18,062 nucleotides of DNA from the NCBI GenBank assembly GCA_013042255.1, contig JABDQK010000075.1, positions 1 through 18,062 of the forward strand. The letters run 5' to 3'. Positions 10,053-14,678 of this stretch are shown piece by piece (the stretch's first letter is position 1; the number at the start of each line of letters is the position of its first letter). The notes beneath the pieces are model-generated. The model was not told where the DNA came from. It made no database searches and saw only the letters and a program-made list of their open reading frames with translations. Origin of the DNA: Flavobacteriaceae bacterium (GTDB taxonomy: Bacteria; Bacteroidota; Bacteroidia; Flavobacteriales; Flavobacteriaceae). The translations under genes were made by a program, and so were the position numbers.

Positions 10053-12905
10053 CTATTGTGAATGACTTACGGCAAGGTCCAATTCTTTTTTTAAATACTG
10101 GGCCGTAAAACTTTTATTGTGGAGTGCCACTTCCTCGGGAGTACCTTCTGCAACAATAGATCCACCACCTCGCCCACCTTCATAACCGATGTCGATAATA
10201 TGATCTACCATTTTTATTACATCCATATTGTGTTCGATGATGAGAATGGTGTTCCCCTTGTCTACAAGACGATTGAGCACCTCCATTAAAACACGGATAT
10301 CTTCAAAATGTAGTCCGGTCGTAGGTTCATCAAGGATATAGAAGGTATTACCCGTATCGCGCTTGGAAAGCTCTGTTGCCAGTTTTACTCTTTGCGCTTC
10401 ACCTCCGGAGAGGGTGGTTGATTGTTGTCCGAGGGAAATATAGCCTAGTCCAACATCCTGTATTGTCTTTAACTTTCTGTGAATCTTAGGAATATTTTCA
10501 AAAAAACTGACAGCTTCGTCAATGGTCATCTCCAGTACATCAGCTATCGATTTCCCCTTGTAGCGAATTTCAAGGGTTTCCCTGTTAAATCGTTTCCCGT
10601 TACAGGTTTCACATTCCACATATACATCAGGCAGAAAATTCATTTCGATCACCCGAAGCCCGCCTCCCTGGCAGGTTTCACATCGTCCGCCTTTTACGTT
10701 GAAGCTAAATCGCCCTGGTTTATAGCCCCTTATCGCAGCTTCTGGTGTTTTGGTAAACAATGCTCTGATCTCACTAAAGACGCCCGTATAGGTCGCGGGA
10801 TTTGACCTTGGAGTTCTTCCAATGGGAGACTGATTAATATCAATGACCTTGTCTACATACTCCAGTCCACTGATCTTTTTATAAGGCATTGGTTTTTTCA
10901 CCCCATTGAAGTAATGTGCATTCATGATAGGGTAGAGGGTTTCATTGACAAGGGTGGATTTTCCGCTGCCCGATACACCGGTTACACCAATCATTTTACC
11001 CAGGGGAAAGCGAGCCGTAATGTTTTTAAGGTTATTCCCTGTACATCCTTCGAGGATAATATCATTCCCATTTCCTTTCCTGCGTTTTTGAGGAATGGGG
11101 ATCTCCTTCTTCCCGGTGAGATAGTCTGCAGTCAGTGTCTGATGCTGTTTCAATTCAGCCGGGGTTCCTTCTGAAATGATTTCACCCCCGTGTTTTCCGG
11201 CCAGGGGGCCGATGTCGATTACGTGGTCTGCACTTTCAATCATATCCTTATCATGTTCCACCACAATGATCGAATTTCCGATATCTCTCAGGGCTTCCAG
11301 AGATTTTATAAGGCGTCCGTTATCCCGCTGATGCAGTCCAATGCTGGGTTCATCAAGTATATACAATACCCCCACCAGTTGAGAGCCTATTTGGGTTGCC
11401 AATCTGATTCGCTGAGCTTCACCACCCGAAAGCGATTTAGAACTTCTGTTCAGCGAAAGGTAGTCCAGGCCAACATCGAGTAAAAACTGAACCCGGCTAC
11501 TGATTTCTTTAATAATCTCTTCTGCGATAATCTTTTGATTTCCCTCCAGGGTATTCTCAAGGCCCTTAAAAAATGTCGCCAATTCAGCGATATCGAGAGC
11601 GGCAAGTTCAGCTATATTCTTATTTCCTATTTTGAAATTAAGGGAAGCTTTTTTTAGTCGGGACCCCTTACATTCTGGACATTGGATTTTATCCATGTAT
11701 TCTTTAGCCCACCGCTTTATCGATGTGGAATCGGCGCTGCTGAACTGACTTCGGATAAAATTGGCAATACCTTCATAGTCGATACTGTATTCCCGTTTTA
11801 CTCCAAGGGATTTCGAATCTAAGGTAAACCGTTCTTCCCCACCGCGAAGAATAATTTCCATCGCTTCTTCGGGGATATTTTCTATAGGATCGGTGAGTTC
11901 AAAGTTGAAACGTCTGGCTATCGTCTCCAGTTGTTTGAAGGCCCATGATTTCTTGTACTCGCCAAGGGGCGCAATTCCCCCGCCGGAAATGGAGAGTTTT
12001 CTATTGGGAAATATCTTTTTCTCGTTGATTTCATAGGTGTGTCCAAGGCCATTGCATTCATCACACATTCCCTTTGGGGAATTAAATGAAAAGGTGTTGG
12101 GCTCCGGACTAGGGTAGGAGATACCAGTTGTGGGGCACATCAGATCTCTACTGAAGTATCGAGGTTCTGTTTCCCCCTCAGCCAGGACCATCAAGGTGTC
12201 ATTCCCACTGTACATAGCAGTATTTATCGATTCTGCCAGTCGTTTTTCCAGATCTGCATCTGCACTCACGGCGAGACGATCCACAACAATCTCTATATCA
12301 TGGGTTTTATAACGATCGACCTTCATGCCTTTCTGGAGATCAAAAAGTTCTCCATCGACCCGCACCTTGATAAAACCCTGTTTGGCAATTTGCTCAAATA
12401 ATTCCCGATAATGTCCCTTTCTTGATTTAACCACCGGTGCCAGGATGTTTATACGTTGACCGGCAAAGGACGAGAGGATAAGCTCCCTGATTTGCTCATC
12501 GGAATAGCTAACCATTTTCTCCCCGGTATTAAAACTATAAGCATCAGCTGCTCTGGCGTAAAGTAATCTCAGAAAGTCATAAATCTCAGTAATTGTTCCT
12601 ACAGTTGATCTTGGGGATTTGGAAGTCGTTTTTTGCTCAATAGCAATCACCGGGGATAAGCCATCGATTTTATCTACATCGGGCCGTTCTAGTCCGCCCA
12701 AAAATTGCCTGGCATAGGCAGAAAAGGTTTCGATATAACGCCTTTGTCCTTCAGCATAAATGGTGTCAAAGGCCAAGGAGGATTTACCACTCCCGGACAA
12801 GCCTGTTATCACAACAAGTTTTTCCCTGGGAATACGTACATCGATATCCTTGAGATTGTGAACTCGAGCCCCATTAACTTCTATAAATTCTTCGAAATCG
12901 GTCAT
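10053..12905 (-). CDS. uvrA: excinuclease ABC subunit A
   Basis: UvrA is the dimeric ATPase that finds DNA lesions and loads UvrB in nucleotide excision repair. From the ATG at 12905 it is 950 aa, close to the E. coli length. Both ABC modules are complete: Walker A GLSGSGKSS (35-43) and GVSGSGKST (643-651), LSGGEAQR signatures (from 492 and 832), and LDEP Walker B (517-520 and 858-861). Cysteine pairs occur at 409/412 and 742/745 with 765/768. The insertion-domain finger has C257 and C281/C284 but Thr at 260, where E. coli has Cys. The N-terminal module also lacks the CPxCG after LLYAR, which I believe is common in Bacteroidota. A longer frame exists from TTG at 12917, but ATG at 12905 starts exactly at MTDFEEFIEV and fits the promoter just upstream. 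It is followed by the LOG and M1-like genes. Confidence 0.96.
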   Translation of the reverse strand: MTDFEEFIEVNGARVHNLKDIDVRIPREKLVVITGLSGSGKSSLAFDTIYAEGQRRYIETFSAYARQFLGGLERPDVDKIDGLSPVIAIEQKTTSKSPRSTVGTITEIYDFLRLLYARAADAYSFNTGEKMVSYSDEQIRELILSSFAGQRINILAPVVKSRKGHYRELFEQIAKQGFIKVRVDGELFDLQKGMKVDRYKTHDIEIVVDRLAVSADADLEKRLAESINTAMYSGNDTLMVLAEGETEPRYFSRDLMCPTTGISYPSPEPNTFSFNSPKGMCDECNGLGHTYEINEKKIFPNRKLSISGGGIAPLGEYKKSWAFKQLETIARRFNFELTDPIENIPEEAMEIILRGGEERFTLDSKSLGVKREYSIDYEGIANFIRSQFSSADSTSIKRWAKEYMDKIQCPECKGSRLKKASLNFKIGNKNIAELAALDIAELATFFKGLENTLEGNQKIIAEEIIKEISSRVQFLLDVGLDYLSLNRSSKSLSGGEAQRIRLATQIGSQLVGVLYILDEPSIGLHQRDNGRLIKSLEALRDIGNSIIVVEHDKDMIESADHVIDIGPLAGKHGGEIISEGTPAELKQHQTLTADYLTGKKEIPIPQKRRKGNGNDIILEGCTGNNLKNITARFPLGKMIGVTGVSGSGKSTLVNETLYPIMNAHYFNGVKKPMPYKKISGLEYVDKVIDINQSPIGRTPRSNPATYTGVFSEIRALFTKTPEAAIRGYKPGRFSFNVKGGRCETCQGGGLRVIEMNFLPDVYVECETCNGKRFNRETLEIRYKGKSIADVLEMTIDEAVSFFENIPKIHRKLKTIQDVGLGYISLGQQSTTLSGGEAQRVKLATELSKRDTGNTFYILDEPTTGLHFEDIRVLMEVLNRLVDKGNTILIIEHNMDVIKMVDHIIDIGYEGGRGGGSIVAEGTPEEVALHNKSFTAQYLKKELDLAVSHSQ

Positions 12906-12922
12906 GCAAATAGGCAAAGTTG

Positions 12923-13070: not shown

Positions 13071-13757
13071 TCAGGCCAGTACTTCGAGGCTTCTTTTTCT
13101 TCTTTTCTTTTTATAAGCAGGAGAGGAAATAAGCGTTTTATCTTCGGTATTATTCCTAAGCTGTTCAGGTTTGATAGCCACAAAAGCAAGGCTCCCGCTT
13201 TGATGCTGCAGGCCGTAGTTTCTGTTTATATCACAGATCAGCCAGTCATCATTTCTGTATCTGGTTCTGAAATATCTGGAAATCAATGGAAGTATATTGT
13301 ATTTCGGTTTAATTAATTTAACATATGAAGTTTCAGGAAAATCGCCGGCCACGAGAAATCGTTCCACAGCTCTTTTTTCTTTTTCCACCAAGTTTGCCAG
13401 TTGATAAATCCTGGCAGAGCCTGTTGCCTTATCCGGTATTTGTTCGTCAATTCTCTGTTTTTGCCACGATATATAGAAATAGTACAACTGAATTTCAATG
13501 TTTTCCTCCTCACTTAAAAAAGCAAAATACAAGGTCTTTAAAGCACTGTAATTCTGGGATCTTAATCCATTCCATATTTGTTTCGCATCTTCCAGTCGGG
13601 TAGCTACATAATTAGGTTGAGGGAACAGGGCCGCCTGTTTATCTTTCAATTTTACAATAGCTTTTGGATGAACACCCTTATATCTCACTTCATGTAAGAG
13701 GGTAAGAAAGCCGTTAAAACTCCCGTCGTAATAGTAAGTGCCAGTTTTTTGTTTCAT
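13071..13757 (-). CDS. DUF4130 / TIGR03915-like putative DNA repair or modification protein
   Basis: At 228 aa, the N-terminus has the family hallmark YYYDGSFNGFLTLLHEV (8-24). It is followed by RLEDAKQIWNGL (54-65), an aromatic-rich region with ALKTLYFAFLSEEE (72-85), VEKEKRAVERFL (124-135), and the core motif PKYNILPLISRYFRTRY (151-167) with NDDWLICDINRNYGLQH (169-185). This is the pattern of DUF4130 proteins, normally partners of a radical-SAM protein and sometimes fused to a uracil-DNA-glycosylase domain; their reaction is not established. Two things are odd. No radical-SAM gene adjoins it here. The usual C-terminal block (LW..YF...RxNxKlxxxxMPxRYWkYL) is absent, and the protein instead ends in a short, very basic tail from about residue 215 (YKKKRRKRS). 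It diverges from the S24 regulator across an operator-like array and precedes uvrA by 165 nt, which supports a DNA-damage role by inference. Confidence 0.72.
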   Translation of the reverse strand: MKQKTGTYYYDGSFNGFLTLLHEVRYKGVHPKAIVKLKDKQAALFPQPNYVATRLEDAKQIWNGLRSQNYSALKTLYFAFLSEEENIEIQLYYFYISWQKQRIDEQIPDKATGSARIYQLANLVEKEKRAVERFLVAGDFPETSYVKLIKPKYNILPLISRYFRTRYRNDDWLICDINRNYGLQHQSGSLAFVAIKPEQLRNNTEDKTLISSPAYKKKRRKRSLEVLA

Positions 13758-13795: not shown

Positions 13796-13868
13796 TGTAT
13801 ATAATCCAAATATATGGATATATTCCACATTATGGAAATATTCCTAAATTTATTTTGGATATATTCCA
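13796..13868. repeat. array of four operator-like imperfect palindromes, consensus TGGAwATATTCCA
   Basis: There are three strong 13-bp copies: TGGATATATTCCA at 13815-13827, TGGAAATATTCCT at 13833-13845 and TGGATATATTCCA at 13856-13868, the last embedded in TTTGGATATATTCCAAA. A fourth, weaker copy TGTATATAATCCA lies at 13796-13808 (11 of 13 positions as in the consensus). Start-to-start spacings are 19, 18 and 23 bp, so neighbouring sites lie on roughly similar faces of the helix. Copies overlap the promoter elements on both strands. The arrangement is what one expects of operators for the adjacent XRE-S24 regulator, controlling itself and the DUF4130 gene. Binding is inference. Confidence 0.7.
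13807..13814 (-). promoter_or_regulatory. -7 element of the DUF4130 gene promoter
   Basis: TATATTTG on the minus strand is an exact TAnnTTTG match, 49 nt before the DUF4130 start codon. Palindrome copy 1 occupies the spacer directly upstream and the weak fourth copy overlaps it on the other side, so a bound repressor would block it. No clear TTG is seen at -33. Confidence 0.5.
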
Positions 13869-13883
13869 AATTCTGTATCTTTG
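13854..13883 (+). promoter_or_regulatory. promoter of the S24 regulator gene
   Basis: TTTG (13854-13857), an 18-nt spacer and TATCTTTG (13876-13883) give a full Bacteroidota promoter with no mismatch. Palindrome copy 3 overlaps the -33 element and fills the spacer, which implies autorepression. The expected leader is about 35 nt. Confidence 0.6.
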
Positions 13884-13925: not shown

Positions 13926-14678
13926 ATGGAAAATGAACTTACAATTAAAAGGTTTACCGATTTAAGACGTGAATTAGGGTATACACAGGCAGAATTTGCC
14001 TCTTTACTAGGTGTCTCAAATACAACAGCCGACATTGAAAGGGGCCGAACAAAACTATCGGGAAAGGTAGTGGCAACCCTGTTGAAACAATTTAAAATAA
14101 ATCCTCTGTGGCTCTACGGAGAGAGTGATCAACAATATATAGAAGCCTCTAATACCAGTGTTATCCCCAAGGTAGTTACTGTAGACAGCGCTGACAAAGA
14201 GAACATGGTTCTGGTCAACGCCAAGGCTGCAGCGGGCTACCCACAGAACATACACGACACCAGTTGGTATCGCCAATTACCTGCTTTCGACCTGCCGATA
14301 CCCGAGTTTCGAAATGCCACATACCGTGGTTTTCAGGTAGAAGGGGATAGTATGCTCCCCAACCTCAAACCCGGGGAATGGGTGCTTGCCAAAGCTGTTG
14401 AGGATCTGAGCGACGTGAGCAGCAATAAAATATATGTAGTGGTACTACAGGATTCTGTTATGGTAAAAAAGATTGAACGCCCGCCCAATACCAACAAGGT
14501 TATCTTAATTTCCCTGAACGAAACCTATCCGCCGTACGAAATTGAACCCTATCAGATTCAGGAATTATGGCAGGTGAGTAGTAAAATCACCTTCGGAGTA
14601 GACGCCACCACTGAGAATGGCCTCCTCCGTCAGCTTCAGCAATCCATGGAAGATTTAAAGAAACAACTGAAAGCTTAG
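13926..14678 (+). CDS. XRE-family HTH / S24 peptidase regulator (LexA-like)
   Basis: This 250-aa regulator has an N-terminal XRE-type helix-turn-helix (about residues 6-60: YTQAEFASLLGVSNTTADIERGR as the recognition region, residues 19-41) and a C-terminal S24 LexA/UmuD-like protease domain (about 95-225). The catalytic pair is Ser142 in VEGDSMLPNLKPG and Lys181 in VMVKKIE. An Ala-Gly pair at 103-104 (AAAGY) sits where LexA-type proteins self-cleave. Residues 228-250 form a probable short coiled coil. Architecture points to a repressor that could inactivate itself on DNA damage, as LexA and phage CI-type proteins do. However, it has no winged-helix LexA DNA-binding domain, and RecA-stimulated cleavage is unproven for Bacteroidota members. 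It faces the DUF4130 gene across four palindromes that overlap its own promoter. No phage genes surround it. Its stop overlaps the convergent downstream gene by 4 nt. Confidence 0.9.
   Translation: MENELTIKRFTDLRRELGYTQAEFASLLGVSNTTADIERGRTKLSGKVVATLLKQFKINPLWLYGESDQQYIEASNTSVIPKVVTVDSADKENMVLVNAKAAAGYPQNIHDTSWYRQLPAFDLPIPEFRNATYRGFQVEGDSMLPNLKPGEWVLAKAVEDLSDVSSNKIYVVVLQDSVMVKKIERPPNTNKVILISLNETYPPYEIEPYQIQELWQVSSKITFGVDATTENGLLRQLQQSMEDLKKQLKA

Follow-up and report, generated by a model that had tools for sequence, protein, structure and literature searches.

The DNA analysed here (the window, 18,062 nucleotides in full) is contig C96 of a 2.0-Mb Flavobacteriaceae assembly (G000), a metagenome-assembled genome judged to be 68% complete, and the closest named relatives belong to Muriicola and Eudoraea of the same family. 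In the window, a gene for a LexA-like regulator with an S24 peptidase domain (start at 13926, plus strand) and a gene for a DUF4130 protein (start at 13757, minus strand) diverge from a gap of 168 bp. Four palindromes of the form TGGA-N5-TCCA, with start-to-start distances of 19, 18 and 23 bp, span both divergent promoters. The gap and the regulator gene contain the following features:

13796..13808, operator site 1, a weak site, TGTATATAATCCA, with two mismatches to TGGAWATATTCCA (GTA-N5-TCC, not GGA-N5-TCC)
13807..13814, minus strand, -7 box TATATTTG of the DUF4130-side promoter, between sites 1 and 2, read directly
13815..13827, operator site 2, TGGATATATTCCA, no mismatch to TGGAWATATTCCA
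13833..13845, operator site 3, TGGAAATATTCCT, one mismatch to TGGAWATATTCCA
13855..13883, plus strand, regulator promoter, TTG at 13855-13857, an 18-nt spacer and TATCTTTG at 13876-13883, read directly
13856..13868, operator site 4, TGGATATATTCCA, no mismatch, over the -33 element and the spacer of the regulator promoter
13926..14678, plus strand, non-canonical LexA, CI-like helix-turn-helix (HTH_3) domain plus S24 peptidase, 250 aa, assigned by domains, residues and homologues

The promoter consensus is TTG...TAnnTTTG. A preliminary description of this DNA had reported three near-identical sites and a weaker one at 18-23 bp spacing in the 168-bp gap, and the coordinates and distances above confirm it. 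It had also described one site as overlapping the -33 and spacer region of the regulator promoter, and the weak site and its neighbour as lying on the two sides of the DUF4130 -7 box, an arrangement that can be read directly in the sequence. Across the whole window there are seven matches to TGGAWATATTCCA with at most two mismatches, compared to a mean of 1.98 after shuffling (one of 200 shuffles reached seven), and four of the seven, the array sites, fall inside 73 bp. A scan for sigma-70 type promoters and terminators gave nothing above shuffles.

The regulator has an N-terminal penta-helical helix-turn-helix (HTH) domain (PF01381, HTH_3, 32.5 bits against a cut-off of 23), followed by a Peptidase_S24 domain (PF00717, 51.9 bits against 23.3). 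The Ser/Lys dyad and Ala-Gly site ascribed to it earlier correspond to Ser142, Lys181 and the Ala103-Gly104 bond, which are invariant in 101 of 101 regulator homologues, and the order of these residues (Ala-Gly, Ser, Lys) is that of a self-cleaving repressor. Canonical LexA (PF01726 plus S24) resembles the regulator in its role, its S24 domain and the order of its cleavage residues, but it carries LexA_DNA_bind where the window regulator has HTH_3, and its operator differs. The LexA_DNA_bind winged helix (PF01726) was not matched by the regulator at E ≤ 0.001, and a search of its own genome, 68% complete, found no match either. PF01726 matches occurred in 8 of 37 genomes, 6 of them above the cut-off; one, in Maribacter sedimenticola (G075), is LexA-like on inspection, and the others lie in frames of 129-460 aa, a length range that suggests winged-helix proteins of other kinds. 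When solved structures were searched with the regulator profile, the sole match was a designed DNA-binding protein (8tac). As a separate observation, the Maribacter sedimenticola protein (L251:1379-1999, 206 aa, PF01726 at 43.3 bits plus S24), in which by eye Cys-Gly stands in place of the expected Ala-Gly, is a LexA of the canonical type, which the phylum is reported to lack.

Non-canonical LexA proteins of Bacteroidetes that combine a CI-like HTH with S24 have been divided into two groups, for which a distant phage origin was proposed (PMC8565304, Sanchez-Osuna et al. 2021). One group, found mainly in Flavobacteriaceae, binds GGA-N5-TCC; that paper describes gel shifts including site mutants, binding to the regulator's own promoter and induction by mitomycin C, with S. 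agarivorans as the organism in which binding and induction were shown. It mentions two or more sites per promoter, and its predicted targets are dinB, an SplB-like radical SAM gene (COG1533), an operon of a uracil DNA glycosylase (UDG) and a radical SAM protein (COG1573-COG4277), umuDC, SRAP and an exonuclease. The window regulator fits membership of the GGA-N5-TCC group by its domains, residues, own-promoter sites and SOS-gene sites: it shares the CI-like HTH with S24, the Ala-Gly bond, the Ser/Lys pair and GGA-N5-TCC sites in its own promoter, and sites before SOS genes recur in its own genome (the PA0069 family, SplB-like radical SAM) and in the same-genus M. jejuensis genome (G182, completeness 100; dinB and PA0069). 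This also bears out the earlier claims of an apparently autoregulated LexA-like S24 regulator that shares operators with a divergent repair-type gene, and of an operator unlike classical LexA boxes. No title of the tested S. agarivorans protein (WP_075324850.1) stands among the best 80 of 500 loci.

We examined the conservation of the array in 101 loci, comprising 80 named loci (the best 80 of 500; regulator identity 79-96%), 20 more distant ones and the window's own. Regulator matches at E ≤ 1e-20 are present in 182 of 299 Flavobacteriaceae genomes, and identities among the matches listed form two bands, at least 45% and at most 39%. The 101 divergent gaps contain 295 exact GGA-N5-TCC sites, where resampled sequence would give 4.8; the control AGG-N5-CCT occurs there 4 times. 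Between neighbouring exact sites, a step of 18 bp occurs 79 times and one of 22 or 23 bp 99 times. A three-site core of fixed spacing is present in 79 loci; its last site is followed by TAnnTTTG in all 79, and the mirrored box (CAAAnnTA on the plus strand) precedes the second site in 78. In 67 of these core arrays site 1 takes the weak form GTA-N5-TCC, at 19 bp, so that its weakness is itself conserved; the remaining 12 have an exact site at 23 bp instead. In the array alignment, which took in 65 of the 101 rows and where the search pattern itself fixes the half-site columns, the -7 box columns are 97-100% identical except at one position (74%), and the leader and upstream DNA average 41-50% identity. 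The palindromes are thus conserved while their flanks drift, which is the outcome that the preliminary description required; the lack of conservation that it named as refuting did not appear. Loci with a divergent repair gene have more exact sites (mean 2.86, n = 7) than those without (1.64, n = 14; Mann-Whitney p 0.004, only indicative as the 21 loci, the 20 more distant ones and L205, are kin to each other), and surplus sites serving a second promoter would fit this difference.

An HTH_3-type domain with S24 is likewise found in the lambda and P22 CI-type repressors, and in lambda several adjacent operators lie over divergent promoters. The S24 protein could be the CI repressor of a prophage or mobile element with leftover operators, as its CI-like HTH would allow, and the top Foldseek matches of its poor structure model are the repressors of phage 186 and lambda, along with LexA. 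We consider this reading extremely improbable, since the DUF4130 and uvrA neighbourhood is common to several genera, the regulator is so similar over the 80 named loci, and its targets are repair genes; an ancient phage origin, of the kind proposed in PMC8565304, may still apply. Unlike the lambda and P22 systems, that of the window is chromosomal, stands before repair genes and has a short rigid palindrome as operator.

Operator pairs, defined as two sites 15-26 bp apart (twelve possible spacings), were searched in 36 genomes with a close orthologue of the regulator, the window's own included, and in 36 family genomes with no or a weak regulator match (E 3.3e-28 or weaker). They were found in 35 of the 36 genomes with an orthologue, where the reversed control pattern gave 0 of 36, and in only one of the 36 without, with a spacing of 24 bp. 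This co-occurrence bears on whether the palindromes belong to some other regulator, with the S24 gene merely a neighbour. Besides tracking the S24 gene, arrays stay upstream of it even when the divergent neighbour varies (radical SAM, DUF4130, dinB or SRAP), and a relative bound such sites in the published gel shifts (PMC8565304), so that ownership by another regulator appears very unlikely.

The window's genome carries a second operator pair, which stops about 6 bp short of a PA0069-family radical-SAM gene (356 aa, 468.6 bits against a cut-off of 360). The preliminary description had suggested a genome scan for further targets, and the pattern scan found this one. The pairs listed for genomes other than the window's include 53, from 26 genomes, that do not belong to the regulator's promoter. 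Next to them lie dinB (26), PA0069 (16), SRAP (4), umuDC (1, umuD identified by eye), a second Y-family polymerase together with an exonuclease (1), small unnamed open reading frames (ORFs) only (3) and neither (2). One of the four SRAP pairs lies behind another small ORF, and an additional one is shared with dinB. Strict sites, defined as the 15-base palindrome, number six in M. jejuensis, all of them in the regulator array or at dinB and PA0069, and nine in G227, all at regulator-array or target-gene loci, some dinB and umuDC genes there being named by eye. A purely local switch, in which the regulator governs only itself and the DUF4130 gene, would agree with the array in the divergent gap being the densest and with the few other strict sites in the genome. 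The same-code pair before PA0069 in the same genome and the sites at dinB, PA0069, SRAP and umuDC in relatives speak against it, making it very improbable. The earlier proposal of a self-contained, damage-released switch therefore stands in one part: release by damage agrees with the conserved cleavage residues and with the mitomycin C induction of published relatives, while self-containment does not agree with these further sites.

The spacing of the target pairs is 19 bp in 52 of the 53 and 20 bp in the remaining one, and such rigidity across several gene families suggests two touching dimers. The target promoters follow patterns of their own: at PA0069, the two paired sites enclose a TAnnTTTG box in 16 of 16 cases, and at dinB this box is at the pair in 1 of 26 cases, with TAnnTTAG just after the pair in 20 of 26. 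We tentatively propose that the operators are composite, with two dimers binding cooperatively at a rigid 19 bp (targets) or at 19/18/23 bp (own promoter), rather than single boxes, and we rate this a little short of an even chance. Single strict sites, one each before dinB and umuDC in G227, weigh against a pure pair code and imply that the pair is no strict requirement.

We consider it highly probable that in this Muriicola-like genome the S24 protein serves as SOS master repressor, a GGA-N5-TCC non-canonical LexA that silences both divergent genes from one array, controls a wider regulon and is released by DNA damage. This reading of the sequence draws on site sequences and placement, conservation, co-occurrence with the regulator, target genes and catalytic residues, all observed here, and takes GGA-N5-TCC binding and mitomycin C induction from published relatives. 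Several findings weigh against it. One genome with a close orthologue (G135) has no operator pair, and an exact site is missing from the upstream 300 bp at two of the 101 loci, which both belong to the distant set of 20. No dinB gene was found in the window's own assembly, at 68% completeness. In G032 two of the six strict sites were examined, and in the own genome two strict sites lie inside coding sequences (uvrA at 11682, and contig C140), besides the array and the PA0069 pair. The structure model of the regulator is poor (predicted local distance difference test, pLDDT, 58.7) and was not relied on.

In the mechanism that we infer for this master repressor, regulator dimers would bind the four-site array in the 168-bp gap, with site 4 blocking the regulator's own promoter at its -33 element and spacer, sites 1 and 2 flanking the -7 box of the DUF4130 promoter and site 3 on its upstream side. 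This placement over both promoters points to repression of the regulator and DUF4130 genes by occlusion from a single array. The repressor would also bind the 19-bp-spaced pair before the PA0069 gene and, in relatives, sites before dinB, SRAP, umuDC and other repair genes. Upon DNA damage, RecA filaments would trigger self-cleavage at Ala103/Gly104 through the Ser142/Lys181 dyad, which would lower the amount of dimer and open all targets, including the regulator's own gene; binding and induction in this organism are predicted.

On the minus strand, the divergent side of the locus holds two genes:

13071..13757, minus strand, DUF4130 protein, 228 aa, whose partner in relatives, the radical SAM protein TIGR03916, was not found here
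10053..12917, minus strand, uvrA by similarity, the longest frame, with another start near 12905, downstream of DUF4130

The DUF4130 protein matches PF13566 (49.5 bits, gathering cut-off 27) and falls below the cut-off of TIGR03915, putative DNA repair protein (105.7 against 112.25 bits). The usual divergent order is radical SAM TIGR03916 - DUF4130 - uvrA, which we take as ancestral. The radical SAM gene comes first in 57 of the 101 loci (in 12 of these the locus also takes in uvrA) and DUF4130, followed by uvrA, in 26; DUF4130 alone is found in 2, uvrA alone in 1 and none by this test in 15, two of which face dinB and SRAP on closer inspection. TIGR03916 is present in 19 of 37 genomes, and its search gave no match in the window's genome (68% complete) and none in the complete M. 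jejuensis genome. DUF4130 is directly divergent from the regulator here, apparently because this usual first gene is lacking.

Two candidates concerning uvrA were rejected. As an SOS target of its own, it follows DUF4130 in many loci, but the intervening 94-2008 bp contain an operator in no more than 2 of 37 loci and a -7-like box in 33 of 37; the window's uvrA may have its own promoter, and co-transcription with DUF4130 is possible. The strict site at 11682 was considered as an operator and taken as chance, as it is absent from the six strict sites of M. jejuensis.

The loss of the radical SAM gene is accompanied by changes in DUF4130. A C-terminal YWKYLSEK is present in 52 of 52 complete DUF4130 proteins with the radical SAM gene and in 0 of 26 without, a count from which L176 and L077 were excluded for want of a recovered frame, L180 and L070-L072 because the end of the locus truncates them, and also the protein of the window, which lacks the tail as well; 25 of the 26 tail-less proteins lie in L171-L250 and one is L061. 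At 78-82% regulator identity, pairs of DUF4130 proteins are on average 68% identical when both have the radical SAM gene compared to 35% when neither has it, and DUF4130 diverges faster where the gene is missing. Mapped on the regulator tree, the radical-SAM label changes 10 times, 4 of them forced by well-supported branches, and in an independent-pairs test all 4 pairs on supported branches go in the expected direction (p 0.125). Fisher values were set aside, as they take kindred rows for independent ones. The association of radical-SAM loss with loss of the DUF4130 tail is suggestive, and independence of the events is not claimed.

These changes, the sub-threshold TIGR03915 score and the absence of TIGR03916 from this genome, as far as it is complete, and from M. 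jejuensis would agree with the DUF4130 arm being a relic, still regulated while its protein drifts or takes on a new role, in which case inducing it would no longer aid the ancestral repair reaction. Such a fate would be compatible with the regulator as SOS master repressor. On the other hand, the window's DUF4130 frame is intact with its N-terminal YDGSFNGFL region kept, the array and -7 box are retained, and DUF4130 persists without the radical SAM gene in 26 of the 80 named loci; on this evidence we hold a relic to be rather unlikely.

As for the function of DUF4130, it has been described as a predicted mutagenesis-related enzyme tied to SplB-like radical SAM proteins and uracil DNA glycosylases (PMC3765255). 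In a literature text search, this was the sole paper naming DUF4130, none named TIGR03915, and no functional study of DUF4130 was found. A resemblance of the DUF4130 structure model to RecJ/DHH proteins may be a weak lead; Foldseek gave no match of the model at E ≤ 0.001, and hhalign found no similarity between DUF4130 and the longest frames from 12 DHH loci, a weak test, since several of these frames were not the DHH protein and the alignments were shallow.

Small proteins of about 85-90 aa are encoded behind operator pairs (L126:1484-1989, L128:2055-2327, L141, L144, L152, L153, L115 and L159), some of them adjoining SRAP or the second Y-family polymerase. A Pfam search with five of them found nothing near cut-off, and they are likely to be uncharacterised SOS proteins. 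Two pairs (L124:2001-2031 and L136:2001-2031) have no known repair gene beside them; one precedes a SocA/Panacea-domain antitoxin-like gene and the other overlaps the start of an 85-aa ORF. In the window's assembly, the start of contig C62 and the end of C188 carry identical DNA, so that these contigs probably adjoin in the genome.

The window locus is an ordinary yet informative member of the published SOS system. It differs from the account in the main text of PMC8565304 by the four-site 19/18/23 array and the 19-bp target pairs, by DUF4130 alone in place of the radical-SAM operon and by uvrA in the operon, none of which is described there; in that main text, 'uvrA' and 'cooperativ' do not occur, and the sole 'spacing' concerns the halves of one site. 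Relative to this text, the rigid 19-bp pairs, the order radical SAM-DUF4130-uvrA and, where the radical SAM gene is missing, the tail loss and faster divergence of DUF4130 are candidate novelties. The gene pair is now placed in the published system, with an operator grammar exact enough to test in its spacing and in the assignment of sites to promoters. The regulon can be tiny, as in M. jejuensis, where dinB, PA0069 and the array account for all strict sites. The joint loss of the radical SAM gene and the DUF4130 tail gives a handle on the interdependence of two uncharacterised repair proteins. If true, composite operators would amount to a CI-like cooperative code within a LexA-type network, with a steeper damage threshold than that of single-box LexA.
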